Positions 1,797 to 32,920 of a DNA stretch of 56,538 bases are shown here, in pieces (positions within the stretch are counted from its first letter, which is position 1; each line of letters begins with the position of its first letter). Position numbers and translations under genes: made by a program. The DNA is from Parasporobacterium sp. GTDB lineage: Bacteria > Bacillota > Clostridia > Lachnospirales > Lachnospiraceae. The DNA is taken from positions 1-56,538 of the forward strand of contig JAFUBX010000007.1 in NCBI GenBank assembly GCA_017459985.1, given 5' to 3'. A model generated the notes under the pieces. The model did not search any database. It saw only the letters and a list, made by a program, of their open reading frames with translations, and was not told where the DNA came from.

Positions 1797-1941
1797 GGCT
1801 TCTTCCTAAAAATTCTCATATAGCATAATTGCAACACTCACTATAGATAAAAACTATAATAATCCTTGCGTCTGTTCCTACCCTTTGATAAAATACAGGC
1901 AACAGACAAATTCATACCACTTCCGCAGATGGCAAGCAGCT

Positions 1942-2838
1942 ATGGAGTTTCGACAGATCAATTATTTTTTGGCGGTGGCAAATCACAGGAACTTTTCCCA
2001 TGCTGCCGCACATCTTCATATCACACAGCCCACCCTAAGCCAGCAGATTCACGAACTGGAATCCGAACTGGGCGTCACATTATTTACCCGGACCAACCGG
2101 GTTACGGAGCTGACTCCCGCAGGACAGGCGTTTTTCAAGGAGGCCACCCTACTGAAGCAGCAATACTCCCGGTGCCTTCAGAGTATCTCCCCCTATATCC
2201 ACAACGCCTCCCTGGTGCTGGGAAGGGTGCGTTCTTTCGAGCCGGAAAATCTGCTGTCCCTGATCCATCAGTTTATGGACAAATATCCGCAGATCGATCT
2301 GCGCTTTAATTCCTATGAATTTGATGATCTGATTGACCGTGTGATCCGCCGGGAGGTCGATGCCGCATTTGTAGTTCTTCCGGATCGGATCCGGTTTCCG
2401 AATGTGGAACACGCGCTGGTCGGACATGACCGGCTCAGTGTGATCGTTCCGAAGAAGAGTGAATTCGGAGATATCAAATCTGTCCGGGATCCCCGGTTCC
2501 GGGAGCTGCTTTCCTCCCCGATGTTTCTGGACGCCCACGGATACTATTACCGGGAGGTTCTGGACTATCTGAAGGATTTTTCCCCGGCTCTGAATATCAA
2601 ATACGCGGAAAATGCCTCCTCTATTTCGATCAATATGTCTTCCTATGGCGGGTTTTCCATTCTTCATGAGAAGTGGTTTTTCCGCTACCTGCCCCGGGAC
2701 CAGTACACAACGATCGAGCTTCCGGACGAAATCGGACTGCTGCAGGTCAGCTTCATCTACAGCAAAGACAATACGAACCCCTGCATCCATTCCTTTATTC
2801 CGGAGGTCATCCGGAATTTCCGGCCGGCCAGGTCTTAA
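1942..2838 (+). CDS. LysR-family transcriptional regulator
   Basis: A 298-residue regulator with an N-terminal winged helix-turn-helix (roughly residues 1-60, beginning MEFRQINYFLAV, with the HLHITQPTLSQQI recognition region) and a C-terminal periplasmic-binding-protein-like effector domain. An in-frame ATG at 1885 would add 19 residues that do not match the family, so 1942 is chosen; its ribosome binding site is weak. It is followed after 24 bp by the acyl-adenylate/LuxR fusion gene, so the two regulators are probably co-transcribed. Likely targets are the URO-D gene upstream and the opposing catabolic operons. The effector is unknown. Confidence 0.9.
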   Translation: MEFRQINYFLAVANHRNFSHAAAHLHITQPTLSQQIHELESELGVTLFTRTNRVTELTPAGQAFFKEATLLKQQYSRCLQSISPYIHNASLVLGRVRSFEPENLLSLIHQFMDKYPQIDLRFNSYEFDDLIDRVIRREVDAAFVVLPDRIRFPNVEHALVGHDRLSVIVPKKSEFGDIKSVRDPRFRELLSSPMFLDAHGYYYREVLDYLKDFSPALNIKYAENASSISINMSSYGGFSILHEKWFFRYLPRDQYTTIELPDEIGLLQVSFIYSKDNTNPCIHSFIPEVIRNFRPARS

Positions 2839-2862: not shown

Positions 2863-5292
2863 ATGAATACAAATATCTTTTTGGAAAACGCTGTCAATAA
2901 TGCTCCCAGCCAGACCGGTCTGATCTTTGAAGACCGGCGGCTGACTTATAAGGAGATCTTTCAGGAGGTCAATAAGCTGACCAATGTCCTGCTGCAGATC
3001 GGCTGTACCCAGGGAACCCGGATCGGGACTCTCTGCCGGAACTGCCCGGAAATGGTATTTCTGTATTACGCTGCCTCCCGGATCGGGGCGATCTTCGTAC
3101 CCTTTGATTATAAAGAAAGTTCCCAGGCGATCCTGTCTATGATCGGGATCATTCAGCCGGAATACCTCTTTGTGGACAACGACTGCATCAACCTGTGCAT
3201 CGCGATCCACCATTCACTGCCCAGTGTCCGGAATATCATCTCCTTCCAGAAGCAGCACGCCTCCTACCTCAGCTACCGCAGTCTGATGGCCCGGGCTTCC
3301 TCCGACTATTACAGTTTCAATACGGCGGATAATGATCCGACGGCGATTTTGTTTACCAGCGGCGCCACCTCTTCCCGTAAGGCTGTGGCTTTTTCCCATA
3401 TCAATTTCATCCGCCATGTGCTGAACACCTGCAAGGATTTTGATAACGGAACCCATATTTCCATCAGCTGCACGCCCTTCACCCATATTCTGGGACTGCA
3501 GTGTATCTTCTCGGCCTTCTACGCCCGGCACACCCTGGTGATGATGAAACAGTTCGATCCGGATCTGTGCCTCCGGCTGATCGAGAAGGAACATGTCTCC
3601 AAAACAGTTCTTTCCCCCAGCCGGCTGGCGGATCTGCTGCACTGCAGCTCCTTCGGAAAAACGGATCTGTCATCCTTTGTCAATATCCGCTACAGCGGGG
3701 ATCTGGCCCATTCCGCGCTGGTCCTGGAAGCCATCCGCAGGCTTCCGGCCAACACCCGGCTGGAAAATCTGTACGGAACAACGGAAACCACCTATGACAT
3801 TACGGCTCTTTCAGAGGAAGACCATGATCTTGACTGTGAGGAGTCAGAAAAGGCCAGAAAGATCGTGCGTCTGGGATCCATCGGCCGCCCGATCTCCAAT
3901 GTGAAGGTCATCATTGCCAATGAGAAGGAAGAACCTCTGCCCCCGGGAGAGATCGGGGAGATCCTGGTCCATACAGACCGATATATGATCGGTTACGTAT
4001 CCCCTGAGACCCACGAGATCGAAGAGATGGACGACTACTGGTTCCATACGGATGATATCGGCTATACCGACGAAGACGGATATATCTTTCCCCTGGGGCA
4101 TAAGATCAATTCCCTTCCGGTGCAGGGAGATACCCATTCCCCCCGGCTGTCTTCGGATTTCATCGTATACCCTTGCGTTACGCAGAATAATCTGAAGCTG
4201 TCGGAAGAGACCCCTCCGGTGGATTTTGTCCGCAGTACGATCAACCAGCATACCTACCGGTATTTCCTCCATTTTCTGCGGCAGCTGTATGAAGCCTCCG
4301 GACTTGATGAGATCATCCGGTGTTATCTGGAATCCCTGCCCCGGTTTCTGGAGGGTTCCATGTTCGGCATCCATCTGCTGCCCATCGAGCAGATGACGCT
4401 CCTTGGCTCCGATAACATGGATCTTTTGAAATGGGATATGCCGTATTTTGATACCCTGCCGGTCAATGCGGCCCGGACGAACATTCAGGATGTCAAGGAA
4501 ACCCTGTATCAGAATTCCCTGACCAAATATACAACCATTCAGGATTATATTGAGAAAATCAAACCGGACCACCTGATCTGCACCCCGCTGTTTTCCCAGA
4601 GCCGGAAACTGATGGGGGTTCTTTCCTTTGGACGGATCGGCACCAACTGGACCTTTAACAGTTTCGAGCAGAATCTGATCGTGCAGATCTCCAATCATCT
4701 GTGCATCGCGCTTTCCAAGGAACTGGAGCGGGAGACTCTGATCCGGAAGACCAGGCTGTTGGAAGGGATCGTGCAGGTATCCGGCATCGCTGTGGTCATT
4801 ACGGATCCGGAGAATCATCTTCTGTATAAGAATCAGCATGCCCACATTATCCTGGAGCGTGAAAAACTCTCCGGCAGAACCGGTACGATCCTGGATACCA
4901 TCGCCGCCCATACGAAGAAGCTGTTAAGCGAAGGAAGATCCAGCATCACCAGCCAGGTTACCACCTATTTTCTGGATGACCCCCAGAGCTATGTCCTGAA
5001 AACTTCTCTGATCGAGGATTCTCCCAGAGCCCTGATCACTGTGATCTCCGGGGATGACACGGAAATGAGTTTCGATTTTCTGGAAGATCTGCTGACCGGC
5101 CAGGAGATCAATGTGATCACCCAGGTCGCCCTGGGACTGAACAATGCGGAAATTGCCCGGAAGCTGAACATCAGTGTCAATACGGTGAAGTATCATCTGA
5201 AACAGATCTTCCAGAAAATGGAGGTCAGCACCCGGGCGGAACTTCTGACAAAGGCCTATGCCGGAAAGAAGGATTACGTTTCCATAGATTAA
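2863..5292 (+). CDS. Acyl-adenylate domain / GAF-like / LuxR fusion regulator
   Basis: 809 residues with an unusual architecture. Residues 1 to about 420 form an ANL-superfamily N-domain: P-loop TSGATSSRK (165-173) for the usual TSGTTGxPK, the A5 motif YGTTET (304-309), and HTDD (395-398) for the usual HTGD. The following hinge reads GHKIN instead of the common DRKKD. The C-terminal lid with its catalytic lysine is absent. Residues about 480-615 look like a GAF domain, about 630-730 are PAS-like, and 740-800 are a clear GerE/LuxR helix-turn-helix (LTGQE, NAEIARKLNI, TVKYHL). I infer a cytosolic regulator that senses a carboxylic acid, its adenylate or a CoA ester. It lies 24 bp after the LysR gene and ends 3 bp from the stop of the opposing URO-D gene. 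Confidence 0.85.
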   Translation: MNTNIFLENAVNNAPSQTGLIFEDRRLTYKEIFQEVNKLTNVLLQIGCTQGTRIGTLCRNCPEMVFLYYAASRIGAIFVPFDYKESSQAILSMIGIIQPEYLFVDNDCINLCIAIHHSLPSVRNIISFQKQHASYLSYRSLMARASSDYYSFNTADNDPTAILFTSGATSSRKAVAFSHINFIRHVLNTCKDFDNGTHISISCTPFTHILGLQCIFSAFYARHTLVMMKQFDPDLCLRLIEKEHVSKTVLSPSRLADLLHCSSFGKTDLSSFVNIRYSGDLAHSALVLEAIRRLPANTRLENLYGTTETTYDITALSEEDHDLDCEESEKARKIVRLGSIGRPISNVKVIIANEKEEPLPPGEIGEILVHTDRYMIGYVSPETHEIEEMDDYWFHTDDIGYTDEDGYIFPLGHKINSLPVQGDTHSPRLSSDFIVYPCVTQNNLKLSEETPPVDFVRSTINQHTYRYFLHFLRQLYEASGLDEIIRCYLESLPRFLEGSMFGIHLLPIEQMTLLGSDNMDLLKWDMPYFDTLPVNAARTNIQDVKETLYQNSLTKYTTIQDYIEKIKPDHLICTPLFSQSRKLMGVLSFGRIGTNWTFNSFEQNLIVQISNHLCIALSKELERETLIRKTRLLEGIVQVSGIAVVITDPENHLLYKNQHAHIILEREKLSGRTGTILDTIAAHTKKLLSEGRSSITSQVTTYFLDDPQSYVLKTSLIEDSPRALITVISGDDTEMSFDFLEDLLTGQEINVITQVALGLNNAEIARKLNISVNTVKYHLKQIFQKMEVSTRAELLTKAYAGKKDYVSID

Positions 5293-5295
5293 AGA

Positions 5296-6273
5296 TCAGG
5301 GCCGGCTGCAGAACGTGCGGCCATAGGAGCGGACCTCGGACGCCAGCCATTCCACCTTGCGTCTGGCATCTTCGGAGGGTCCCACCGGATCCCCGTCCCA
5401 GAACACATAGCGGGCTGCGCCCGCATACTTGTCAATGGCATCCCGGGCGGAACGCCGGACCTCTTCTTCCGGGGCTCCGGGCCGTTCCGCGGCGCATCCC
5501 TGCCAGCAGCCTTCAAACACCAGCCGGTCTTTATATTTCGCCATCAGCGCAGGCAGATCATTCAGATCTTGGGCCGGCTGCCAGATATCCACGCCCATCT
5601 GTACAAAATCCTCCACCACCGCTTCGCATTTTCCGCAGCAGTGCCATTCCACGGGAAATCCCGCCTCTTTGCCCGCGGCTATGATCTTCTGATAACCGTC
5701 CCGGAACAGTTCCTCAAAGGTGGGCTTTGACATAAACAGGGACAAGGAGGAGGCGATGTCGTCTCCCACCTGGATCATATCCGGTTTAAAATATTCGATG
5801 ACCTTCTTCGCGATCCGGACATCATAATCCGCCAGATAGTCCACGAATTCCGGGACCTCCTCCGGCTCCTCCAGAAGCGCCACCAATGCATCCTCAAACC
5901 CCATCATATTGACCAGCGGGATAAAGAAGGTCCCGCTGCGGGCCGCTGTGATGATCACGTTCATGATCTTCTCCGGATCATGGCGCTTCAGGCTGTCCCG
6001 GGCAATCTGTTCCCAGTCCATGGCGTCAAGGTCCGGAAGCCTGACAAGGTCCCGCCATCGGGTGATATCCTCCATAACATGGTAGGAACTGTCCGCCATC
6101 CTTCCGTCCGGAGAAACGATCCAGCGGACTCCGAACAGATCCGTCTTGTCCTCCCGGGCCATATGGGCCACCACAAAATCCGGAAAGATCCATTCCACCG
6201 CATCCCGGTAATAGGGGATCCAGGCAGCTTCCTTCCCCTGTACAATCCGCATGAAGTTCTCTTTTTCGGTCAT
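5296..6273 (-). CDS. Uroporphyrinogen decarboxylase superfamily protein
   Basis: 325 residues, full length for the family. The block TEKENFMRIVQGKEAAWIP opens the barrel, GFEDAL lies at about 125-130, and H211-C212-C213-G is the putative metal motif, followed by a second cysteine (KCEA). It resembles the methyltransferase-like branch more than HemE. It is the last gene of train A, 15 bp after the metallo-beta-lactamase-fold gene, with AGGAAAGGA upstream of the ATG. No partner corrinoid protein is present, so the reaction is unknown. Confidence 0.85.
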   Translation of the reverse strand: MTEKENFMRIVQGKEAAWIPYYRDAVEWIFPDFVVAHMAREDKTDLFGVRWIVSPDGRMADSSYHVMEDITRWRDLVRLPDLDAMDWEQIARDSLKRHDPEKIMNVIITAARSGTFFIPLVNMMGFEDALVALLEEPEEVPEFVDYLADYDVRIAKKVIEYFKPDMIQVGDDIASSLSLFMSKPTFEELFRDGYQKIIAAGKEAGFPVEWHCCGKCEAVVEDFVQMGVDIWQPAQDLNDLPALMAKYKDRLVFEGCWQGCAAERPGAPEEEVRRSARDAIDKYAGAARYVFWDGDPVGPSEDARRKVEWLASEVRSYGRTFCSRP

Positions 6274-6288
6274 AGGGCGGGTCCTTTC

Positions 6289-7044
6289 CTACTCATGGAT
6301 CTCGGCAGCTTCCAGTTCCTGCACCGTATAGTACATTTCCTTTCCGGCGAGTTCCTCTTCCAGAGCCTGACGGACATAGACATCATCCCGGGGATTGCCG
6401 TGTCCCGGCCAGAATTTCTTTACTCCCAGATCCAGGAGTTTCTGAACACTTTGCTGGGGCTGCTCATAGGGAGCTCCTTCGTACTGGAAATAGGTCATAC
6501 CCACCAGATCCGTGAAGGCCGGCGCTGTGAAAAGATCCCCTACAATAGCTTCCTCCCCGACGATCACGCAGCTGCAGCTTCTGGAATGCCCCGGCGTATA
6601 AACGATAGTTCCGTCAATACCCCATTCCTTCAGATCACAGCCCTCATCCCCGAAGGTCAGATCCACAGGCCCTGTGGGGGCATGGTCCACGGGATTGCCC
6701 TTCTTCTGCTGGGCCGCCCACATTTCCTTTCCCATCTTCGTGCGGCCTTCAAAATCCACATCCGGCAGAAGGCCTTCCACAATAAACCTTCTGGCTTTCT
6801 CGTGGCACATCACCTTCGCCCCGGTGACATCCGCGAAGGCCTGCACATTCATAAAATGATCCACATGTCCATGGGTGATCACGATCAGACGGATGTCCTC
6901 CGGCCTGAGGCCGGCCTCCGCAAGATGCCGCAGGACCGGTTCCGGTCCCATCTCCGCGCCGGTATCCACGGCAATGGCTCCCTGCTCTCCTTTTACAAAA
7001 TATCCGTTGGACATACCCGAACGGTAACGAATGATTTCCGACAT
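6289..7044 (-). CDS. Metallo-beta-lactamase-fold hydrolase
   Basis: 251 residues with the signature T57-H58-G59-H60-V61-D62-H63 that binds the dinuclear metal centre, and later ligands in TPGHSRS and GHGNP. The length fits stand-alone glyoxalase II-like or lactonase-like hydrolases. The start follows AAGGAGAAAGAA. It lies between a TRAP permease gene and a URO-D gene in train A, suggesting it hydrolyses a thioester, ester or lactone intermediate; the exact substrate cannot be read from sequence. Confidence 0.88.
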   Translation of the reverse strand: MSEIIRYRSGMSNGYFVKGEQGAIAVDTGAEMGPEPVLRHLAEAGLRPEDIRLIVITHGHVDHFMNVQAFADVTGAKVMCHEKARRFIVEGLLPDVDFEGRTKMGKEMWAAQQKKGNPVDHAPTGPVDLTFGDEGCDLKEWGIDGTIVYTPGHSRSCSCVIVGEEAIVGDLFTAPAFTDLVGMTYFQYEGAPYEQPQQSVQKLLDLGVKKFWPGHGNPRDDVYVRQALEEELAGKEMYYTVQELEAAEIHE

Positions 7045-7080
7045 TTCTTTCTCCTTCTGTGTGTGTCTGCGAACCTTCTT

Positions 7081-8976
7081 CTATGCTGCGAACAGCAGGT
7101 TCGGAAGCCAGGTTACGATCTGGGGAATAAAGATCATAAGAATGATCAGCGCCAGTGTAACAAAGGCAAAGGGCAGCGATCCCCGGTAGATGGTGCCGAT
7201 CGGCACATCCCGGGCGACGCCCTTCAGGGTGAACAGGTTGATTCCCACCGGCGGGGTAATGGTTCCGATCCCGATCACGATGGACAGAATGATCGTAAAC
7301 CAGGTGGGATCAAATCCCAGGGCAACCATGGCCGGATGCACCACCGGAACGCCGATCAGGATCAGCGGCATGATATCAATAAAGAATCCCAGAGCGAAGA
7401 AGATCAGCAGAATGATCACCAGCGTCAGGTACGGATTCATGGACAGGGCTTCGATCAGACCGGAAAGCATCTGAGGAAGTCTTGCCAGGGTGATGACCTT
7501 GCCCAGCATGTTGGCTCCGATCAGGATCATGAAGATCATGGCGGTTCCCTTGCCGGTCTCCAGAAGGGCGTTGATCAGTTTCTTCCAGGTCATCCGCCGC
7601 ATGATCAGGGCCATGATCAGGGCCAGACCGCAGCCGATGGCGCCGGCCTCCGTCGCGCTGAAGATACCCAGATAGATGCCTCCGATGACCACCAGGAAGA
7701 TGATCAGCACCGGCAGCCCTTTGACCAGAGATTTCCCCTTCTCCCGGGCGGTAAATTTCTCTCCTTTTGGTCCCATGTTGGGCCGGATCTTACAGATCAC
7801 CAGGATATAAACCGCGAATAAAAGCCACAGCACGATCCCGGGAACCAGGCTGGCGATAAAAAGCCGTCCCACGGACTGCATGGTCAGCATGGCGTAGATG
7901 ATCAGGGGCTGGCTGGGAGGAATGATGGGCCCTAAGCTGGTGCCTCCGATGATGGTGCCTGTGGACAGCCGTTCATCGTATTTGTAGCGTCTCATCTCCG
8001 GCAGGGCCACCGCGCCCATGGTGATACAGGGGGCGGACCCGTTTCCGACGATGGCGGCAAAGGCGGCGCAGGCGGTCACCGTGGCAATCGCCAGACCTCC
8101 GGGAAGACGCCCCAGCCATTTGTAGGCCGCGTCATACAGATCCTTTCCGAACTCTGCTTCATACACCAGATATCCCATAAACAGGAAGAAAGGAATCACC
8201 GTCCAGGAATAGGACGAGGTGGTGGAGAACATATTGTTGGAAAGCAGCTGAAAGGCGGTCTTCGGATTCTTGATGATGGAGATGAAGATCAGGGATGCCG
8301 CAATAAAGGAAATACTGATGGGCATTCCCGCAAACATGAACAGAAGGGAGACAATGATTCCGATCACGCCCACTGCCGTGGCGTCCCAGCTGTGTTTGGT
8401 ATACATGATGATCACAGACACCGCGATCAGGACGACCGGGATCAGAAGTCCCAGGATCCACCGTTTTGCTTCAATCCTCTGCTCCTTCCCATCCTGAATG
8501 CATTTCAAGATATCCCGCAGGAAGATCAGGGCGAACAGGATACTTCCCAGGATCATGGCAAATCCGAAGGGGGTCGCCGGGATCTTGATGACCTGATCCG
8601 CAGCCACATGATCCTCGATAAAATAAATGGTTTCTTCGACGGCCCGCCATACCATCAGGCAGGCGATCACAAATCCGATGATGTTGTTCCCCAGGTCGTT
8701 GATGGTATGATTCTTCGGCGACAGCTTCTGGGTGAACAGATCCACACAGATGTGGCCCTTCTCATTTAATGTATAGGCAATACTGAAAAAGACCGCCAGC
8801 ACCAGGCAGGCTGCCGTGCATTCATATACTCCGGTGATAGGATTTTTAAACACATACCGGCAGAACACGTCGCAGCAGGTGGCGGCCACCATCAGAAATA
8901 CCGCGATGACGCCAACGGCATTCACCCAGCTGCTGAACACTCCGATCTTATCCAGTCCTTTGATTACTCGTTTCAT
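7081..8976 (-). CDS. TRAP transporter fused QM permease
   Basis: 631 residues joining both membrane subunits of a tripartite ATP-independent periplasmic (TRAP) transporter. Residues 1 to about 165 are the small DctQ-like part with four membrane helices. A linker helix near 170-190 leads into the large DctM-like part (about 195-631) with the characteristic GNGSAPCITMGA, GTSLGPIIPPSQP and IGTITPPVGINLF segments. It imports organic acids with sodium, using the binding protein encoded just upstream. The other TRAP system in this locus keeps Q and M separate. Confidence 0.93.
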   Translation of the reverse strand: MKRVIKGLDKIGVFSSWVNAVGVIAVFLMVAATCCDVFCRYVFKNPITGVYECTAACLVLAVFFSIAYTLNEKGHICVDLFTQKLSPKNHTINDLGNNIIGFVIACLMVWRAVEETIYFIEDHVAADQVIKIPATPFGFAMILGSILFALIFLRDILKCIQDGKEQRIEAKRWILGLLIPVVLIAVSVIIMYTKHSWDATAVGVIGIIVSLLFMFAGMPISISFIAASLIFISIIKNPKTAFQLLSNNMFSTTSSYSWTVIPFFLFMGYLVYEAEFGKDLYDAAYKWLGRLPGGLAIATVTACAAFAAIVGNGSAPCITMGAVALPEMRRYKYDERLSTGTIIGGTSLGPIIPPSQPLIIYAMLTMQSVGRLFIASLVPGIVLWLLFAVYILVICKIRPNMGPKGEKFTAREKGKSLVKGLPVLIIFLVVIGGIYLGIFSATEAGAIGCGLALIMALIMRRMTWKKLINALLETGKGTAMIFMILIGANMLGKVITLARLPQMLSGLIEALSMNPYLTLVIILLIFFALGFFIDIMPLILIGVPVVHPAMVALGFDPTWFTIILSIVIGIGTITPPVGINLFTLKGVARDVPIGTIYRGSLPFAFVTLALIILMIFIPQIVTWLPNLLFAA

Positions 8977-9006
8977 GGATCTTTCCTTCTGAAATTATAA
9001 GACATG

Positions 9007-9029
9007 GGGCAGGAGAAGTCCTCCTGCCC
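9007..9029 (-). promoter_or_regulatory. Intercistronic hairpin between TRAP P and QM genes
   Basis: A 9-bp GGGCAGGAG/CTCCTGCCC stem with a 5-nt loop lies between the binding-protein gene and the permease gene. No T-tract follows on the minus strand, so it may stabilise the upstream mRNA or partly attenuate transcription rather than terminate it. Confidence 0.5.
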
Positions 9030-9057
9030 GTTTGTTTTTCTGCTTTTCCCCGGTCGG

Positions 9058-10104
9058 TCAGTCGGCCTGCTCCGCAACCAGCTCACGCATCCGCTCGATC
9101 AGTTTGCTTCCCGGAAGTCCGTTTGCATCCGATGCAGCGGCCCATTCATCAGCGGCTTCATCCACGGCTGCCTGGAACTTCTCGATCTCAGCCTGATCCA
9201 GATTGACGATCTCCATTCCCAGCTGCGGCTCGATCTCTTCCTCGCATTTCGCGATCTGCTCATCATACCACTGGCCGATATTGAATTCTCCGCCGGATCC
9301 GTAATACGTAAAGACTTCCTGTACTTCTTCCGGAAGATCATTCCAGACATCCTCGTTCATAACGATGGATACCATCTGATTGACCACATCCAGATTGGTG
9401 TAACGATACTTGGTGACCTCATTCCAGTGATTGGAGATAATGGATTTGGAAGTACCGCCGGTTCCGTCGATCAGTCCTCTTTCCAGTGCGGAGTACACTT
9501 CATCCGGAAGAGTGGATACCGGTGACCAGTTGAATTTGGCAAAGATCGTTGCGGAGATTTCGCCCAGTCCGGATACCAGCATTCCCATGTTCTGCGCTTC
9601 CTCGAAGGTTGCGAACTGCTTGTTGGAGTTATACTGCTGTCCGCCTTCCACCAGCGTTGCCAGCACGTGGGTTCCCTTGTACTCTTCCTGAATCTCGGGA
9701 AACTCCTGGTATAAGGTTTCATAGATCAGGGACGGATTCTTGATATTGACTCCGTTCCAGGGGTACTGCAGTCCCAGCTCGGTTACGAAGTTGCCCGGCA
9801 TACCGGTCAGGAACAACGTGATATCCGCGGTTCCGTCCTGGGCAGCCTTGAAGGCTTCCACGACAGAGCACAGAGATCCGCCCCAGTAGCATTCAAATTC
9901 CACATTGTATCCTTTTTCTGCGCAGGCCTGGGAGATCATATCCATCCAGGGTTTTGCGAAGATCTCGGAATCCGTCTCATTCTCCATCCAGAACGTTGCA
10001 AAGCTGAGAGTGATATCCTCATCTGCCTTTGCAGTCGTACGGATCATGGTACAAAGACTCAGGATCATAACTGCAGCGATCATAACAGCAACTACTTTTT
10101 TCAT
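9058..10104 (-). CDS. TRAP transporter substrate-binding protein (DctP family)
   Basis: 348 residues with a Sec signal peptide (MKKVVAVMIAAVMILSL, cleavage probably near TAKA-DE) and a DctP/TAXI-type mature domain that should capture a carboxylate outside the membrane. The family GLIDGTGGTSKS region and the DVWNDLPEEVQ segment are recognisable. The ATG follows TTAGGAGGGATTGTC. It precedes the fused QM permease, separated by a hairpin that probably favours high binding-protein expression. The ligand is unknown. Confidence 0.92.
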   Translation of the reverse strand: MKKVVAVMIAAVMILSLCTMIRTTAKADEDITLSFATFWMENETDSEIFAKPWMDMISQACAEKGYNVEFECYWGGSLCSVVEAFKAAQDGTADITLFLTGMPGNFVTELGLQYPWNGVNIKNPSLIYETLYQEFPEIQEEYKGTHVLATLVEGGQQYNSNKQFATFEEAQNMGMLVSGLGEISATIFAKFNWSPVSTLPDEVYSALERGLIDGTGGTSKSIISNHWNEVTKYRYTNLDVVNQMVSIVMNEDVWNDLPEEVQEVFTYYGSGGEFNIGQWYDEQIAKCEEEIEPQLGMEIVNLDQAEIEKFQAAVDEAADEWAAASDANGLPGSKLIERMRELVAEQAD

Positions 10105-10129
10105 GACAATCCCTCCTAAATAATGATAT

Positions 10130-11107
10130 TTATCGCAAACGGCTGTAAAATTCCCTGCCGTATCTGCGCGCTTCCTCCATACTTCGCTTCTGGTTCTCCG
10201 GAAGCAGTTTGTTGCTGACGCGGGATTCGATGATCACATTCTGATACGGGGCAAAGATATCTATAGCCCGGTGAACATCGGAAAGGATCTGCTCCGGTGC
10301 CGCGTCAAAATAATTGGCGTAATGAGACAGGTTCACGTTAAAGCTCACCTGGTCTGCATACTGTTTTTCGATCATTTCCCAGTCATTCATATACTGGACG
10401 GGGTTGATCATATCCACCCCGTTTTCGATCAGACAGGGAATGAACTCCTGCATATGGCCGCAGCTGTGATGGGTATACAGCACGCCCTTTTGGTGGACGG
10501 CTGCCACCATGCGTTTGTGGGCCGGCTGGATCAGCTCCCGGTAACTGCCCACAGAGATCAGCGGACCATGGGCGCTTCCAAGATCATCATGACAGATCAT
10601 TTCATCCGGGTGATACGCATCGATCAGTCTGCCGAACAGATCGATCTTCCAGTCGGCGATGGTATCAATGAGGGCCTGATACTCCTCCGGTTCCGTCAGC
10701 ATGGAGGCAAATGCCTCCTCAAATCCCATCAGGGCGCTGATCCGCTCAAAAGGTCCCTTCTCACAGAACAGGCGCAGGATCTTTCCCTCCCGGTCCGCAT
10801 GCTCCAGATCTTTTTCGGCGCAGGCCTGAAAATCAATGGCATCCAGATCCGGGAACTTCACGACTTCCCGCCACATGGTGATATCCTCCAGCAGATATTT
10901 CTGCCGGATATCCGGCGCATGGCCGAAGCAGGTGGGATCCCAGCACCAGCGGCATCCGAACCAGTCAGCTCCGTCCTTTCCGAATTCCGCCTGCTCCTTC
11001 ATGGCGCTGGGCATCACGACCTGATAGCAGTCCTCCGCCAACGGGACCCAGGCAAGGTCTTTGGATCTTCGATATGCCCGGAGCGCGTTTTCCCTTTCTG
11101 TCAACAT
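10130..11107 (-). CDS. Uroporphyrinogen decarboxylase superfamily protein
   Basis: 325 residues from the ATG at 11107, chosen because AAGGAG lies 8 bp upstream; an in-frame ATG nine codons earlier has no such site. The N-terminal block is LTERENALRAYRRSKDLAW, GFEEAF lies near 128-133, and the putative metal motif is H213-H214-S215-C216-G, differing from the HCCG seen in the paralogs. This divergence suggests a different metal site or substrate. It sits in train A between the PhlG-like gene and the second TRAP system. Confidence 0.85.
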   Translation of the reverse strand: MLTERENALRAYRRSKDLAWVPLAEDCYQVVMPSAMKEQAEFGKDGADWFGCRWCWDPTCFGHAPDIRQKYLLEDITMWREVVKFPDLDAIDFQACAEKDLEHADREGKILRLFCEKGPFERISALMGFEEAFASMLTEPEEYQALIDTIADWKIDLFGRLIDAYHPDEMICHDDLGSAHGPLISVGSYRELIQPAHKRMVAAVHQKGVLYTHHSCGHMQEFIPCLIENGVDMINPVQYMNDWEMIEKQYADQVSFNVNLSHYANYFDAAPEQILSDVHRAIDIFAPYQNVIIESRVSNKLLPENQKRSMEEARRYGREFYSRLR

Positions 11108-11143
11108 CTCGGTCTCCTTGTACATTCCCTGCACGCTTTATGC

Positions 11144-11968
11144 TTACTGATTCGGCCGGGCATTCCAGAAATCCCGGATATTCCGGGCGTTGGTGGCGTA
11201 TTCCGTAAAGCAGTGACGGGCCATGCCCCTGGCAACATCCTCCCGGACTGCGCCGAAGAAGGGCAGGGAGATATCACTCTTTCCGGTCTCCCGGTTGATG
11301 TTGAGTCCCATCCAGAACCGGGAGCAGATAAATTTTCCTTTTCCCATTTTCCGGTAAAAATGAAGCAGCGTCACATCCAGATGTTCCTTTCCTTCCCGGT
11401 CTGTGATCTTCATGATCTGGGAATTACCTCCCCGGATATTCAGGAAATTGGGGTCCACTTCCTTCACATTTTCCGGAAATCCCATTTTGGTCCATTCCGG
11501 TGCCCGGCTGACCCGCAGGATCTCCGGTTCTCTTCCCACTGCCTCAATGGCGGCATTTGCATAGTGTCTCACATGCTGTCCCGGATACCAGGCCTTATAG
11601 AACATATCGCCGTCATTCGGCGTGTTGTCGTCAAAATATGCCTCCATCTCATCGGTAATATCGGACATATCGCACCAGGTGGCTCCGAATCCGATTCCGT
11701 TGGGAAGAATGCAGTAACCCCCCAGGAACAGATCCACATTGGGACCCATCATATGCATGGCCATATCCTCCGGCATGAACGCCCGGGAGGGATCCATGGG
11801 TTTCAAAAGCGCGGCTTCCTGCTCCGGCCGGAGCTCAACAGGGCCCTTCTTCCAGATCTCATAGGCGTAGGACTTCTTCTCTTCCTCTGTGGGTTCCGTC
11901 GTCAGGGACAGATAATCGGACTCCGGAACATCGTCGATACTCACTGTAAATCGTTCAATAATCTTCAT
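11144..11968 (-). CDS. DAPG/phloretin hydrolase-like protein (PhlG family)
   Basis: 274 residues. Motifs recalled for zinc-dependent C-C hydrolases that cleave acylphloroglucinols (PhlG, phloretin hydrolase) can be matched by eye: a YKAWYPGQH segment (H132), LLHFYR (H203) leading into SRFWMG, and the C-terminal H252-x3-E256 pair. An expected His/Trp position before YKAW appears to be replaced by acidic residues (near 113-114). It would cleave an aryl ketone or related C-C bond in the cytosol. It follows TRAP permease 1 by 77 bp with an intervening hairpin. The assignment rests on remembered family motifs, not an alignment. Confidence 0.6.
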   Translation of the reverse strand: MKIIERFTVSIDDVPESDYLSLTTEPTEEEKKSYAYEIWKKGPVELRPEQEAALLKPMDPSRAFMPEDMAMHMMGPNVDLFLGGYCILPNGIGFGATWCDMSDITDEMEAYFDDNTPNDGDMFYKAWYPGQHVRHYANAAIEAVGREPEILRVSRAPEWTKMGFPENVKEVDPNFLNIRGGNSQIMKITDREGKEHLDVTLLHFYRKMGKGKFICSRFWMGLNINRETGKSDISLPFFGAVREDVARGMARHCFTEYATNARNIRDFWNARPNQ

Positions 11969-12006
11969 GTACTTGCAGCTCCTTTATACTGCTGTGATTG
12001 CAAACA

Positions 12007-12026
12007 GCGGGCCCTTCGCGGCCCGC
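12007..12026 (-). promoter_or_regulatory. Intercistronic GC hairpin
   Basis: A perfect 7-bp GCGGGCC/GGCCCGC stem with a 6-nt loop between the DctM stop and the PhlG-like gene. There is no T-run on the minus strand, so it is more likely an mRNA-processing or stability element than a terminator. Confidence 0.5.
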
Positions 12027-12045
12027 CGTTCCATCTGATTCTTTA

Positions 12046-13347
12046 TTATTTCATGAGACTCGGAAGCCATGTGGACAGGGCCGGGATGTACATGACCAGA
12101 ACAGTGGCCGCAAAGGTTGCGATCACGTAGGGCCATACACCGGACATCAGTTCCGACAGCTTGCAGTCTTTGATCCTCGCCGCGATAACGAACAGGCAGA
12201 TGCCCACCGGCGGTGTGATGGATCCCAGAGCCACGGTCATGGTGGAGAGAATACCGAACCATACTAGGTCGAATCCCAGGGCTGAAACAGCTGGTGCGAA
12301 TAACGGGATGGTCAGCATCATGATGACCGGGGTATCAATAAAGCATCCCAGGATCAGGTACAGGATGACGATGCACCAGATGATGACCATCGGAGGAACG
12401 TCCAGTCCTGTGATGAAAGCAGCCAGCTTGGCGGGAAGCCGGGTCATTCCCAGGAAGGAGTTGAAGACCTGGATTCCGACGAAAATGAAGAACAGTCCGG
12501 ATGCCACCGTTGCACAGTTTTTAACTGTACGGAGCATCTGCTTCACATTCAGTCTCCGCTTGATAAATGTGATGATCATGGCAACCAGCACGGCCAGACC
12601 TGCAGCTTCATTGACTGTGGTGATTCCGCCCCAGATGAAGACCATGATAACGATGATCAGCACCAGGATCGGCCATGCTTGGGAAAGGGAATGGAGTTTC
12701 TCTTTCCGGGAGGTCTTGTCAGCCAGCGGAGCCAGCTTCGGATTGATCCGGCAGCGGACATAGGTGGTCAGGCACAAAATGATAGTCAGCATGATGCCCG
12801 GGATCCAGCCTGCCATAAACAGCTTGCTGATGGAGGTCTCGGCCAGGATACCATAGGTGATCAACGGAGTGCTGGGTGGGATCAGGATGGCCAGAGGACC
12901 TGCAGCTGCGATGGAGCAAAGGCCCAGACGGCGGTCATAATGATACCGTTTCATTTCCGGCCATGCGATCTGGCTCATCACGGCTGCAGTGGCCTGGCCG
13001 GAACCGCAGATAGCGCCGAAAATGGCTGATGCCACGGTGCTGGTGATCGCCAGTCCGCCGTGCATTCTGCCAAGGAAATTCCGGGCAGCCCCGTACGCAT
13101 CCGTCGTCAGCCTTCCGTCCACAGAGATATCACCCATTAACATAAACATCGGGATTACCGATAAGGAATAGGTCATAGCAGTTGTAACCGGAATCGTCTG
13201 CAGGAAAGTTAAAGCTCCGTTAAATCCCAGCATCAGCCACAATCCGATAAACCCGGTAACGATAAAGGAAAAAGCAAGGTTAAAGTTGGCAAACATTAAC
13301 ACCAGCATAATTCCGAGGCCGATAAGGCCTGCTGTTGTACCTGACAT
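12046..13347 (-). CDS. TRAP transporter large permease (DctM family)
   Basis: 433 residues, the usual length for the large TRAP membrane subunit, with about twelve hydrophobic segments. Family segments include GSGQATAAVMSQ, LIPPSTPLITYG and LGSITPPVGICLF. The ATG directly follows the TAA of the DctQ gene with no gap, implying translational coupling. With its neighbours it forms the first TRAP system of train A. Confidence 0.94.
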   Translation of the reverse strand: MSGTTAGLIGLGIMLVLMFANFNLAFSFIVTGFIGLWLMLGFNGALTFLQTIPVTTAMTYSLSVIPMFMLMGDISVDGRLTTDAYGAARNFLGRMHGGLAITSTVASAIFGAICGSGQATAAVMSQIAWPEMKRYHYDRRLGLCSIAAAGPLAILIPPSTPLITYGILAETSISKLFMAGWIPGIMLTIILCLTTYVRCRINPKLAPLADKTSRKEKLHSLSQAWPILVLIIVIMVFIWGGITTVNEAAGLAVLVAMIITFIKRRLNVKQMLRTVKNCATVASGLFFIFVGIQVFNSFLGMTRLPAKLAAFITGLDVPPMVIIWCIVILYLILGCFIDTPVIMMLTIPLFAPAVSALGFDLVWFGILSTMTVALGSITPPVGICLFVIAARIKDCKLSELMSGVWPYVIATFAATVLVMYIPALSTWLPSLMK

Positions 13348-13893
13348 TTAATTCACCTCGCTTTCTGCCTGTTCCGGCATCTTGTTTTCTTCCGTCGGAT
13401 GCACTGCTTCCATAATCTGATCAATTCCTTTCATGAGGAGTTCGATCGTAATCAACACATAGCAGATGATGACCAGAAGATAAATATAGGCTTCCGGGAT
13501 CCGCAATATCGTGGTTGCATACCGCTTCAGATTGGATATTTTAGTGGAGAGCGAAATCGTAAGCTCATACATAACAAAGGAAGCGATAATCGCACAGGCA
13601 AAATTGCCGATGGCGTTCATGATATTCCTCGGGCGGGGTTTCAGCTTCTCGGCAATGACCGGAACGCTGGTCATGGTTCCCTTCCGTATCGCCAGACTCA
13701 AGGCGGCATATACAAAGACCGCCAGCGAAACCTGCACAATTTCCTCTGCACCGGTCCAGGGACTCTTCAGGACATAACGCATAAACACGTTGATGCCGCT
13801 GACCAGAGACATGGCAATCATAGCCGCTGCAGATACCCAGCATAAAGCATTACTGATATGGCCAATGATGGCATGTATTTTTTTATAAACCAT
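13348..13893 (-). CDS. TRAP transporter small permease (DctQ family)
   Basis: 181 residues with four predicted membrane helices and the family motifs VFMRYVLKSPWTGAEEI near the second helix. It is the small membrane subunit that docks with DctM. GAGGTGAAATA precedes the ATG. A strong hairpin lies between it and the upstream binding-protein gene. Confidence 0.93.
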   Translation of the reverse strand: MVYKKIHAIIGHISNALCWVSAAAMIAMSLVSGINVFMRYVLKSPWTGAEEIVQVSLAVFVYAALSLAIRKGTMTSVPVIAEKLKPRPRNIMNAIGNFACAIIASFVMYELTISLSTKISNLKRYATTILRIPEAYIYLLVIICYVLITIELLMKGIDQIMEAVHPTEENKMPEQAESEVN

Positions 13894-13907
13894 TATTTCA
13901 CCTCATA

Positions 13908-13952
13908 AAAATTCCTGCTGCCTTGTCAGAAACAAAAGACAGCAGGAATTTT
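13908..13952 (-). terminator. Terminator-like hairpin between TRAP P and Q genes
   Basis: A perfect 13-bp stem (AAAATTCCTGCTG with CAGCAGGAATTTT), immediately followed by T residues in the minus-strand transcript and then the ribosome binding site of DctQ. Partial termination here would leave the binding protein in excess over the membrane subunits. Confidence 0.7.
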
Positions 13953-13961
13953 AATCACAAG

Positions 13962-14963
13962 TTATCGGCCGATTACTTCGTCTGTGATGGCAAAGATTGC
14001 TTCTGCATCATATCCCTGCTGGTCAAGGCTTGCCTTTTCAGCTTCTACAAGTGTATCGGTAGCTGCCTGCAGATCTGCTACGAACTCGTCGGAAGGAGTG
14101 TATCTTTCCAGTCCTGCTGCTTCCATAGCGTCCCAGTACTCCAGCAGCTGTTCTTCCTGAATCTCCAGGAAATGCTGCTGCATGGTCTTTCCGACTTCCT
14201 TCACTGCTTCCTGCAGTTCCGGTGACAGGCTGTCATAGACGTTCTTGTTCATAACCCAAAGAGCCGGTCCATTGAATACGGAAAGATCCAGGGTGTATTT
14301 CAGGCATTCTTCCATGTGGTTCGGGTACATCATGATCGGAGAGGTCATAACGCCGTCGATGGTTCCTTTTTCCAGAGCCGGTACAACCTCTGCGAATCCC
14401 ATGGTAACCACGTTTGCGCCAAACTCCTGAAGCATCTGTACGGAGATTCCGGATACGGCACGGATATTCATACCATTAAAATCAGCAAGGGATTCCACCT
14501 TCTTCGATGCAAAGGAAAGCATCTGGGGATCTGTTGCCATATAGCACAGTGGTTCAAATCCATCGTGGGTCTCTTCCAGTAATCCGGCTTCATCCAGTGC
14601 TTCCATACAGGCGATGACATTATCAATATTGCCTGTATAGAACGGGATCTGCAGAAGATCCAGTACCGGGAAGAAAGCAGGAGTCTGTGCCGGAGAGTTC
14701 ATGTACATGGCGACAGCACCATTCTGAACCATACGAAGGGCATCCTCAGAAGTTCCAAGACTGGTCATATCCACCAGTTCCACTTCGATCTGACCGTTGG
14801 TGGCTTCCTTCATAACATCCGGAAGAATGTCAAACTGTGCCATATTTGCGGTGGCAATTGCCAGCTGCATATGGATCACATCGCCGCCCTCACCGGCCAT
14901 TGCGAATCCTGCAAAGCTGACGGTCATGACAGCTGCGATCAACAATGCTACTAATTTTTTCAT
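13962..14963 (-). CDS. TRAP transporter substrate-binding protein (DctP family)
   Basis: 333 residues with a signal peptide (MKKLVALLIAAVMTVSFAG, probable cleavage after AMA) and a DctP-type domain containing VVPALEKGTIDGVMTSP. It is the first gene of train A, with a strong AAGGAGG ribosome binding site 8 bp from the ATG. Its promoter region carries the palindrome that also heads train B. The ligand is unknown but is probably a carboxylate processed by the downstream enzymes. Confidence 0.93.
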   Translation of the reverse strand: MKKLVALLIAAVMTVSFAGFAMAGEGGDVIHMQLAIATANMAQFDILPDVMKEATNGQIEVELVDMTSLGTSEDALRMVQNGAVAMYMNSPAQTPAFFPVLDLLQIPFYTGNIDNVIACMEALDEAGLLEETHDGFEPLCYMATDPQMLSFASKKVESLADFNGMNIRAVSGISVQMLQEFGANVVTMGFAEVVPALEKGTIDGVMTSPIMMYPNHMEECLKYTLDLSVFNGPALWVMNKNVYDSLSPELQEAVKEVGKTMQQHFLEIQEEQLLEYWDAMEAAGLERYTPSDEFVADLQAATDTLVEAEKASLDQQGYDAEAIFAITDEVIGR

Positions 14964-15026: not shown

Positions 15027-15066
15027 ATCATATCCCGTGGAATGTCCGTCCCACCCATAAGGGTAG
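15027..15066 (-). promoter_or_regulatory. Promoter and shared operator of train A
   Basis: On the minus strand a -10 TATGAT (15027-15032) lies downstream of the palindrome ACCC-N4-GGGT (15053-15064), which occupies the -35 position where no good -35 hexamer is visible. That is the layout of an activator-dependent promoter. The flanking 17 bases match the site at 32787-32803 at 16 positions. Confidence 0.6.
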
Positions 15067-15068
15067 TT

Positions 15069-16161: not shown

Positions 16162-17115
16162 CTACTCGATATGGGCCACCTGACAGGGCTCCACCAGGAT
16201 GGGGTCCATGCCGATCCGGCGGTTGTGGTTCAGTGCACGGATCTTTTCATAGTCTTCCTCTTCCAGTACAAAATCGAAGATTCGGATGTTCTCCCGGATC
16301 CGGGAAGGGGTTTTGGACTTGGGTACTGCGGAAATTCCGGACTGGATCTCCCAGCGCAGAATGATCTGGGCCGGGGAGCGATGATATTTTTCTGCAACCT
16401 GACCGATAACCGGATCTTCCATCAGCACCTCCTCCGGCGGATCAAATCCTTCCACATCCTTCGGGCCGCCCAGGGGAAAGAACGCCTGTGGCTGAATCCC
16501 TTTCGCCCGGCAGTAAAACCTCAGAGCCTCTTCTGTAATATAGGGGTTACACTCAAACTGATTGACCGCAGGCGCCACCTTGCAGTTTGCGAAAATCTGT
16601 TCCAGACAGTAGACGTCAAAATTGGAGACGCCTAGAACCCGCACGAGTCCCTCTTCATACAGCCGTTCCATGGCTTTCCAGGATTCCAGGAATTTCCCGT
16701 CCCGGGGACAGGGAAAATGGATCATCAGCATATCCAGATAATCGATGCCCATCGATTCGGTAATATAATCAAATTCCCGGAGGGTATCCTCGTAGGCATG
16801 CATTTTGTTGCGGATCTTGGAGGTGAGGAACAGTTCCTTCCGGGGAACTTTGCATTCCCGGATCACCTCCCGGATCTCATCGCCGTTCCGGTAATTGGCA
16901 GCACCGTCAAAAAGACGGTATCCGCAGTCCACTGCCGTTTCAAATGCGGTCACAAGCTCTTCCCCGGCAAGACCGTGAAGCCCCAGTCCCAGAAGGGGCA
17001 TCGAAACTCCGTTATTCAGTATGACATTCTGGGGCTTTGCAGTCCCGACAGCTGCAGACAAAATTGCAGGCGGAGTTTCCCCCGCCTGCGCTGCATTGTA
17101 ATTATTCTGCTTCAT
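16162..17115 (-). CDS. Aldo/keto reductase
   Basis: 317 residues if started at the ATG 17115. This is an NAD(P)H-dependent cytosolic reductase of the AKR superfamily: NNGVSMPLLGLG strand, FDGAANY (catalytic Asp and Tyr), LTSKI (Lys), MLMIHFP (His), and a C-terminal AVPKSKTPSRIREN cofactor motif. The start is uncertain: the first 30 codons overlap the ABC binding-protein stop by 14 bp and run through a hairpin, and AKRs usually begin close to QNVILNNG. A TTG downstream of the hairpin is an alternative. The substrate is probably a carbonyl intermediate of the locus. Confidence 0.88.
   Translation of the reverse strand: MKQNNYNAAQAGETPPAILSAAVGTAKPQNVILNNGVSMPLLGLGLHGLAGEELVTAFETAVDCGYRLFDGAANYRNGDEIREVIRECKVPRKELFLTSKIRNKMHAYEDTLREFDYITESMGIDYLDMLMIHFPCPRDGKFLESWKAMERLYEEGLVRVLGVSNFDVYCLEQIFANCKVAPAVNQFECNPYITEEALRFYCRAKGIQPQAFFPLGGPKDVEGFDPPEEVLMEDPVIGQVAEKYHRSPAQIILRWEIQSGISAVPKSKTPSRIRENIRIFDFVLEEEDYEKIRALNHNRRIGMDPILVEPCQVAHIE
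17066..17089 (-). terminator. Hairpin after ABC binding-protein gene
   Basis: An 8-bp stem GCAGGCGG/CCGCCTGC, followed on the minus strand by AATTTTG, only 13 bp after the stop of the binding-protein gene. It would partly terminate the ABC transcript and lies inside the proposed 5' end of the reductase gene. Confidence 0.45.
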
Positions 17116-18190
17116 ACCAGTTCTTGTAGGAAGGATCGATCTCCTTGATCGTGGTGTAGTAGGACAGTTCATGCAGAGAATAATACGGTTTTTCGATCTG
17201 TCCGGTCGCCAGTCCGTAAGAAACCGCGAAAAGGTCCTCGCCGAAATCCAGCTTGCCTTCCACGATGGTTCCCCGGAATGCGCTCTCATTGTTTGCGGAT
17301 GCGTCGATGGAAGCGCAGGTGGAATCAGAGGTGCAGCCTGCGATAATGCAGTATTCGCTCAGATCCACATTCTTGCTCTTCAATACACTGTCAGCCGGAA
17401 TGCCGTGGGTGTCAGACCAGCAGACGATCAAACGGATATCCGGATCCACGGTCAGCATATCTTCGGTCGCTGCGATGCTGTCATCCGTGAACATACATCC
17501 GTCATTGTCATAGGTCAGCGCAATTCTCGGATCCGCAGCCAACGTATCCAGGATGCCGGCGGTACGGTTTGCGATGTACTCGATTCCGATATTGGTCAGG
17601 GTACCGCAGTGAACGCTGCCTTCCGGAGCGTCTTTGCCGTATTTTTCATCCACCCAGGACAGAGCCAGTTTGGCGATCTCCACGCCGTACTGATAAGCAT
17701 CTGCTGCCATGCCGGCGCTGATGTGCTGTTTGACATCATCGGTGACATTGGTGATCCAGATCACATCGATGCCTGCAGCGATTGCCTTGTCGCAGGATTC
17801 GAACAGGACGCCCGGCTCGAAGGGGATGATGATGATCTGATCCACGCCCATGGTGATGAAATTCTCCACCTGCTCGATCTGGGTGACGGAATTGGCGTCA
17901 CAGGAAAGAGCCTGCACCTTTACGCCATACTCTTCATACTGTTTCCCCAGGCTGGTAAGGAATCCTTCCACCCAGGGCTCTGCCAGATTGGCAACCGTAG
18001 CGCCGATCATCTTGATGCCCGGCTCATAGGATTTGTCGATAACATCTGCCAGCAGTGTACTGTTGGCTGCATCCAGAACGGTCACTTCACCCGGGGCTTC
18101 CTCTTCCGCATACACGGTGAATGCAGAGGCCATCAGACTTACTACCATTGCTGCCACCAGGACCAGGGCGGCCCATTTGATTTTCTTCAT
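17102..18190 (-). CDS. ABC transporter substrate-binding protein, sugar type
   Basis: 362 residues with a signal peptide (MKKIKWAALVLVAAMVVSL...) and a periplasmic-binding-protein domain of the ribose/galactose (Peripla_BP_4) class. Recognisable parts are the first strand KMIGATVANLAEPW and ITMGVDQIIIIPFEP. The ATG follows TAGGAGGTTTGAAAC. It lies after the permease and ATPase genes, an unusual last position. No lipobox is evident. Despite the sugar-type fold, the ligand could be a glycoside or an aromatic. Confidence 0.9.
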   Translation of the reverse strand: MKKIKWAALVLVAAMVVSLMASAFTVYAEEEAPGEVTVLDAANSTLLADVIDKSYEPGIKMIGATVANLAEPWVEGFLTSLGKQYEEYGVKVQALSCDANSVTQIEQVENFITMGVDQIIIIPFEPGVLFESCDKAIAAGIDVIWITNVTDDVKQHISAGMAADAYQYGVEIAKLALSWVDEKYGKDAPEGSVHCGTLTNIGIEYIANRTAGILDTLAADPRIALTYDNDGCMFTDDSIAATEDMLTVDPDIRLIVCWSDTHGIPADSVLKSKNVDLSEYCIIAGCTSDSTCASIDASANNESAFRGTIVEGKLDFGEDLFAVSYGLATGQIEKPYYSLHELSYYTTIKEIDPSYKNWYEAE

Positions 18191-18212
18191 GTTTCAAACC
18201 TCCTATATCATT

Positions 18213-19232
18213 TTATTTTTGCTTTTCTGCCTGTGCCAGCCTCTGGGATGGGGTCAGTTTTTCCGCCTTCAGCTTGGCCTTTTTCTGCATGCTGTCAAAT
18301 GCCACGGCCGCCACAAGGACAATGCCTTTGACCACATACTGCGGATAGGTTCCCATTCCCATCAGCTGCATTCCGTTGCTGAGAACCTGCAGCAGCAGGA
18401 TTCCCAGTACCATACCCGTAACTTTTCCTTCTCCTCCCCGGAACGAGATGCCTCCCAGAATGCCTGCCGTCATACAGGTAAATTCCAGTCCGCTTCCCAT
18501 GCCGGCATAGATCGATCCGGTCCGTCCGATCAGGACCAGACAGCCAAGTCCGACAAACAGGCCGGAAATGGTATAGATCAGCAGCCTCATCCGCTCCACA
18601 TTTACGCCGGCCAGTTTGATGGCCTCCTCGTTTCCTCCGACGCCATAGATATACCGGCCGAAATAGGTCCGGTTCATGACAAAGGCCATGACGATCACTG
18701 CAATCACCATGATCACAATTGCCAGGGGGACCACACCGGCAATATAGGTTTTCCCCAGGAATGTGACGCTGGCCGGAAGATTGATGAAGGTCCGGCTCTT
18801 CGACAGAATAAAGGACAATCCCTGATATGCGTAGGAAGTTCCCAGGGTGATAATGAGGGCGTTGACATTGAAACGAACCATCAGAAACCCATTCAGGAAG
18901 CCCATCAGCATTCCCAGTAAAATGATCACCAGGATCCCCAGGAAGGAACTCTGCCCCAGATCCTGGACCAGGACCGCATAGACCACCGACATGAAGGAGA
19001 CCTGATATCCGATGGACAGATCGATGGCGCCGGAGATCATGATCATGGAAACACCCATGCCGATGATGATCGCGTAAGTGGACTGCATCAGGACATTCAG
19101 CAGATTTCCCGTAGTAAAGAAATTATTGGCAATAAAGGAGAATACGATGATCACCAGGATCAGCACAAACAGCATCAGCTGATTCCTGATAAATTCTCCC
19201 GGATGAAATGTTTTTTTCATATTTGTTTCCAT
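18213..19232 (-). CDS. ABC transporter permease, RbsC-like
   Basis: 339 residues with eight to ten membrane segments and the BPD_transp_2 family signature seen as SGAIDLSIGYQVSF and GGEGKVTGMVLG. It forms the membrane channel with the adjacent ATPase, from which it is separated by one base pair. GGAGAGCGTAGT precedes the ATG. Confidence 0.93.
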   Translation of the reverse strand: METNMKKTFHPGEFIRNQLMLFVLILVIIVFSFIANNFFTTGNLLNVLMQSTYAIIIGMGVSMIMISGAIDLSIGYQVSFMSVVYAVLVQDLGQSSFLGILVIILLGMLMGFLNGFLMVRFNVNALIITLGTSYAYQGLSFILSKSRTFINLPASVTFLGKTYIAGVVPLAIVIMVIAVIVMAFVMNRTYFGRYIYGVGGNEEAIKLAGVNVERMRLLIYTISGLFVGLGCLVLIGRTGSIYAGMGSGLEFTCMTAGILGGISFRGGEGKVTGMVLGILLLQVLSNGMQLMGMGTYPQYVVKGIVLVAAVAFDSMQKKAKLKAEKLTPSQRLAQAEKQK

Positions 19233-19233
19233 A

Positions 19234-20748: not shown

Positions 20749-20782
20749 AAATCTGCCTTTCCTTTATTCAACGGGAAAGCCT

Positions 20783-22168: not shown

Positions 22169-22202
22169 AATTTCCTGCCCGGTGCTCAAGTGTGCATCTG
22201 TA

Positions 22203-23429: not shown

Positions 23430-23450
23430 ACTCTGCTTCTCCTTTTCTCT

Positions 23451-24701: not shown

Positions 24702-24715
24702 GCCTTCGCCCCTTT

Positions 24716-25891: not shown

Positions 25892-25931
25892 TCTTTCCAC
25901 CTCCTGTATCGGTTCCGTTCGGCTCCCGGAC

Positions 25932-28391: not shown

Positions 28392-28406
28392 TGTTCTGAT
28401 CCTTGT

Positions 28407-29507: not shown

Positions 29508-29521
29508 TCTCATTTTCCTCC

Positions 29522-30325: not shown

Positions 30326-30340
30326 CTTCCTTATTCCTCC

Positions 30341-31483: not shown

Positions 31484-31519
31484 AGTTTCCTCCTAAATAC
31501 AATGTCTGTCTTTTCTATC

Positions 31520-32759: not shown

Positions 32760-32803
32760 ATTTTACCCTGAAGCCCGGATTCCTCCACCACCCATACGGG
32801 TAG
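32760..32803 (-). promoter_or_regulatory. Promoter region and shared operator of train B
   Basis: The palindrome ACCC-ATAC-GGGT (32790-32801) within CCACCCATACGGGTAGT is nearly identical to the site heading train A at 15050-15066. A possible -10 TAAAAT (minus strand) lies at 32760-32765, about four bases further from the palindrome than in train A, so the exact promoter is less certain than the operator. The gap 32702-33014 otherwise holds only the terminator of the flavoprotein gene. Confidence 0.55.
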
Positions 32804-32920
32804 TCATGTTATCCGCTTTCCGGCGGGCTCCGTGCCCTGTGTCTGAGCCGGATCTTCCCGGCTGCCCCCTCGGAGGCCCGGACGAGCCGCGCGGGCAGAA
32901 TCTCCTGCTGCGGGATACAT

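Follow-up and report, generated by a model that had tools for sequence, protein, structure and literature searches.

We analysed a 56,538-nucleotide stretch of Parasporobacterium sp. (family Lachnospiraceae; contig JAFUBX010000007.1), hereafter the window, in which one gene joins the front part of an ANL enzyme to a transcriptional regulator. The gene, at 2863-5292, is a single open reading frame that is uninterrupted throughout (Table 1). The AMP-binding profile and the N-domain fold are present in the N-terminal half of its product, and a GerE helix-turn-helix is present at the C-terminus, where an Xre-like helix-turn-helix profile was matched in Pfam with an E value of 0.15 only. Between these two parts lie a GAF-like and a PAS-like region. 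Two separate alignments were used as input for the structure prediction.

The roles of the ANL motif residues and the ANL mechanism are general knowledge. The enzyme half was compared with 18 ANL enzymes at 25 columns, each conserved in at least 85% of them and named here by the enzyme residue. The regulator retains 19 of these columns, and the six altered ones are Gly170 (Ser), Gly222 (Arg), Gly371 (Thr), Gly397 (Asp), Arg413 (His) and Ile418 (Leu). The P-loop lysine Lys173, the YGxTE motif and Asp398 are unchanged. The variant P-loop, the HTDD motif and the lost hinge reported by the initial annotation, which was made from the letters of the window, were thus borne out. The Gly-to-Ser change in the P-loop is also found in a lid-bearing ANL enzyme of another genome (L025 1288-2967, G148), whose P-loop reads TSGTTSESK.

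Complete ANL enzymes carry a C-terminal lid with the A10 lysine. In the regulator, Pfam gave no match to AMP-binding_C at E ≤ 1, while as a control the same domain was detected in four of five enzymes (the exception was L004). In addition, the motif search found nothing resembling the A10 lysine motif of the lid after residue 413, and no lid domain was seen in the predicted structure; among the 50 Protein Data Bank (PDB) matches listed, 22 have ranges reaching 485-498. A hidden intact lid beyond residue 420, which the initial annotation had named as a finding that would overturn its claim of a lid-less protein, was therefore rejected, since it was not found by Pfam, by the motif search or in the model. 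With both the lid and the hinge lost, the ANL half should no longer complete the full coenzyme A (CoA)-ligase cycle. It appears that a member of a very large superfamily of enzymes was cut at the hinge and joined to a regulator. No AMP-binding protein besides the regulator was found among the window genes submitted to Pfam. An 829-amino-acid open reading frame of the same genome (L003) is a paralogue with an unrelated N-terminal part and, by eye, a lid-like C-terminal end, and it was set aside as not of this type.

The window sequence alone retrieved a 755-amino-acid protein in genome G159, which belongs to another genus of the same family (E = 4.7e-40). The two proteins share 23% identity overall, and the middle part alone (residues 471-735) matches the G159 protein at 46.5 bits. 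Pfam found AMP-binding, GAF_2 (below the cutoff) and GerE in the G159 protein and no lid match. Between the two proteins, the motif columns are more similar than the remaining columns; because the P-loop of the G159 protein lies one residue out of register in the alignment, this test errs on the strict side, and for the same reason the 14 of 25 columns counted as kept in G159 is too low a figure. A third copy (L089 3489-4699, G321:C80) is broken: its frames are interrupted and, by eye, part of the middle is absent. In a tree with 20 enzymes, the three ANL parts cluster with one another with support of 87/82, which is suggestive only. The architecture read from the window, a lid-less ANL domain followed by GAF-like, PAS-like and LuxR parts, is confirmed, together with the retained motifs and a second member with the same parts. 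The regulator is a family with a divergent second intact member and not an accident.

The searches for the regulator covered the window's own genome, 14 genomes of the genus, 200, 397 and 396 of the family (overlapping draws), 391 of the class and 398 of the phylum, as well as 20 genomes from the genus of G159 and one from that of G321; the large searches scored no more than the best four to five candidates of each genome. In total, two intact copies and one broken copy were found in what we estimate to be about 1,200 different genomes, and within the genus the regulator is present in the window's own genome only (1 of 14). A profile of the C-terminal part at E ≤ 1e-12 had matches in 22 of 397 family genomes and 40 of 391 class genomes, mostly to the helix-turn-helix stretch alone. 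A script check of the reported loci, which left out 13 class-search matches without a reported locus, found the ANL and middle parts together in the window, in G159 and in pieces in G321 only. Among 72,556 plasmid records, 1,502 matched and none had one place covering 80% of the query, and a single-sequence contig scan gave four loci, titled Rhodospirillaceae, that match only residues 25 or 26 to 408 of the query.

The regulator gene ends 3 bp from the probable operon 1 on the minus strand. Its G159 relative stands after a MatC/CitMHS-type carrier and an enolase-superfamily enzyme on the same strand, and the broken G321 copy adjoins fragments that resemble, by eye, the carrier gene near the G159 copy. 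Since TRAP and acyl-CoA genes are found in the window and the carrier and enolase-superfamily enzyme in G159, the genes near both intact members look like genes of carboxylate import and breakdown.

The initial annotation had named two places for a test of DNA binding (given there as 15050-15066 and 32787-32803), and both hold ACTACCCNTATGGGTGG, in the same orientation relative to the operons. This sequence is found exactly at these two places only in the whole genome, and there is no further place at one or two mismatches. With up to three mismatches, the site has 17 matches and the reversed control 36, and weight is therefore given to the two exact places only. The rest of the two upstream stretches differs by eye, and 150 shuffles gave no shared 17-mer with one mismatch or fewer. 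A shorter pattern with up to two mismatches has 10 matches in the window compared to 3.27 expected. With up to one mismatch, 4 of 88 genomes (own included) matched; the three foreign places fall within long open frames and are taken as chance. In the promoter scans, neither site showed a promoter-like pair on the operon strand, and the single pair detected is on the plus strand; by eye, TATGAT and TAAAAT are seen 18 and 22 bp after the sites.

Table 1. Features of the regulator gene and of its surroundings in the window
Feature	Position	Strand	Remark
Regulator, 809 amino acids: lid-less ANL N-domain, GAF-like, PAS-like and LuxR helix-turn-helix parts	2863..5292	+	
ANL (AMP-binding) N-domain, residues 1-413	2863..4101	+	
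Variant P-loop (A3) TSGATSSRK, Lys173 retained	3355..3381	+	
A5 motif YGTTE (YGLTE in the G159 relative)	3772..3786	+	
A7 motif HTDD (TGD in most enzymes), Asp398 retained	4045..4056	+	
Degenerate A8/hinge LGHKIN, Arg to His at 413	4093..4110	+	
Linker at the enzymes' lid position, unstructured in the model	4111..4221	+	predicted local distance difference test (pLDDT) < 50 at 416-469
GAF-like region and long connecting helix, about residues 454-636	4222..4770	+	
PAS-like region, about residues 640-728	4780..5046	+	
LuxR/GerE helix-turn-helix, residues 743-796	5089..5250	+	
Candidate operator ACTACCCTTATGGGTGG, 87 bp before the start codon at 14963	15051..15067	-	
Candidate operator ACTACCCGTATGGGTGG, 86 bp before the start codon at 32701	32788..32804	-	
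LysR-type regulator, ends 24 bp upstream of the regulator gene	1885..2838	+	true start probably ATG 1942
Probable target operon 1: two TRAP transporters, two UroD-type, MBL-fold and DAPG-hydrolase-like proteins	5296..14963	-	probable limits
Probable target operon 2: FAS1_DH/MaoC-type proteins, acyl-CoA dehydrogenase, ETF, CaiB-type CoA transferases; also MatE, ABC transporter, aldo-keto reductase	16162..32701	-	probable limits
TetR regulator	41146..41739		
Response regulator	41822..42496		
LysR regulator	47086..47973		
TetR regulator	55406..55957		

Other features of the surroundings were also seen. Three UroD-type (MtaA-like) proteins and one DAPG-hydrolase-like protein are encoded at 246-1274 (+), 5296-6273 (-), 10130-11134 (-) and 11144-11968 (-), surrounding the regulators and the TRAP transporters. 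An 819-amino-acid protein with two tandem CaiB-type CoA-transferase domains (25932-28391, -) is followed by two single CoA transferases. The 610-bp stretch at 1275-1884, upstream of the LysR gene, contains imperfect inverted repeats (46 nt, 74% complementary) and a 32-nt direct repeat (72%), both around TATCCCTG.

The initial annotation had proposed that the enzyme fold has become a sensing domain for the carboxylate or CoA ester used by the neighbouring operons. The sensing role fits the single open reading frame, the second member, the absence of a lid, the retained nucleotide-site residues, the nearby carboxylate transport and acyl-CoA genes and the unique pair of sites. As to the ligand, we think that a CoA ester is the least likely one, since the lid, which helps to build the CoA/pantetheine site, is gone. 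On balance, we consider it probable, as one joint claim, that the protein is a one-component regulator of the LuxR/GerE DNA-binding class whose lid-less ANL half senses a carboxylic acid and which activates two catabolic operons. The acid would enter via the neighbouring transporters, and the ANL half would bind it with ATP/AMP or hold it as a tight acyl-adenylate. The binding signal would then travel via the GAF-like and PAS-like parts to the helix-turn-helix, and the LuxR head would bind ACTACCCNTATGGGTGG before the two operons, activating both. The ligand, the direction of regulation and the regulator as the binder of the sites are what we infer. In BirA, a biotin protein ligase and repressor, the adenylate is the signal. 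By analogy, and more tentatively, the half-enzyme might slowly make an acyl-adenylate and, with no lid to hand it on, retain it as the inducing signal; a BirA-like logic would then have evolved independently on the ANL fold, with a LuxR readout via the GAF-like and PAS-like parts.

Several points weigh against this joint claim. The predicted model of the C-terminal half is weak (pLDDT 57). The ANL domain of the window is nearer to enzymes (up to 102 bits) than to that of G159 (41 bits), and long branches meet in the ANL tree, so that a single origin of the fusion rests equally on the middle and DNA-binding parts. The candidate operators are about 10 and 27 kb away from the regulator gene, and the protein that uses them could be the adjacent LysR or a different regulator of the window. 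No such site stands out at the G159 gene (L088), where 16 matches with up to three mismatches compare with 12.0 expected. Moreover, the ANL domain could act as a scaffold and have no ligand at all. In that case the protein would be a real regulator with an inert or dimerising ANL part, in which the GAF-like or PAS-like part senses; GAF and PAS domains are the usual sensors, the P-loop, A7 and hinge have drifted, and three LuxR-type proteins of 347-366 amino acids from the same class or phylum (L060, L061 and L094) lack the ANL domain and align to the C-terminal half. In Pfam, L094 has PAS above the cutoff, L060 has GAF at E 0.032, and L061 has GerE and neither GAF nor PAS. We regard this explanation as unlikely, because nothing would require an inert scaffold to retain 19 of the 25 enzyme-conserved columns, or motif columns that are more alike between the two members than the rest.

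That the pair of sites belongs to the upstream LysR, with other targets for the regulator, is a lesser but serious possibility, and it is compatible with a sensing ANL half. The LysR gene directly precedes the regulator gene on the same strand; at E ≤ 1e-60 it is unmatched in the remaining 87 of the 88 genomes, which leaves no case of the LysR without the regulator for comparison. LysR-type regulators follow a T-N11-A box rule, and no such box in register with the dyad of the site was seen by eye. The half-sites, also by eye, each match the NarL heptamer, given as TACYYMT in PMC4886647, at 6 of 7 positions, an agreement that favours a GerE-type binder over LysR. A bifunctional enzyme, whose N-domain would still supply another protein with adenylated acids and for which DNA binding would be secondary, could draw on the retained Lys173, YGTTE and Asp398 and on an N-domain-only ANL structure with an inhibitor (5zrn, by its title); it is improbable given that no lid or A10 lysine was found, that the hinge is degenerate and that the island has CoA transferases for activation. 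Finally, a frameshift or misassembly fusing an ANL gene to a LuxR gene would agree with the single occurrence in the genus. The unbroken frame and the recurrence of the lid-less architecture in G159 in practice refute this option, which the initial annotation had raised, and leave it hardly credible.

The conversion of an enzyme into a sensor is a classic idea, of which there are few clean examples. The lid-less ANL regulator offers two divergent intact members and a short, testable pair of target sites. If acid sensing is true, the family would supply sensor domains for specific acids and would show, as an experiment made by nature, what becomes of an adenylating N-domain that lacks its lid.

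Compared with known systems, the regulator resembles BzdR, which responds to benzoyl-CoA, controls anaerobic benzoate degradation and has a shikimate-kinase-like effector domain (PMC3602430), in that an enzyme fold is converted to the effector-binding half. BzdR differs in its N-terminal DNA-binding domain, whereas in the window protein the ANL fold comes first, the GAF-like and PAS-like parts follow and a LuxR helix-turn-helix is C-terminal. BoxR is a relative of BzdR. BirA likewise joins an adenylate-forming fold to a DNA-binding domain, but uses another adenylating fold, has an N-terminal helix-turn-helix and keeps its ligase activity. Neither a shikimate-kinase profile nor a biotin-ligase catalytic domain is among the 17 Pfam matches of the regulator at E ≤ 1. 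ANL acyl-CoA ligases (feruloyl-CoA synthetase 8wev; FACL13/FadD13, N-domain 5zrn, and 3t5c) have the lid as complete enzymes, whereas the window protein has a linker and the regulator half in its place. VqmA-type PAS-LuxR regulators (VqmA is a quorum-sensing receptor for DPO according to the entry title) and other GAF/PAS-LuxR regulators are without an ANL domain. In the titles and abstract beginnings of the open-licence literature, we found no paper in which a LuxR regulator is described as sensing through an ANL N-domain, in line with the initial annotation, which knew of no characterised regulator of this architecture. Therefore, the enzyme as sensor (BzdR) and the adenylating fold with a DNA-binding domain (BirA) are already known, and the ANL-LuxR combination is new within the literature searched.
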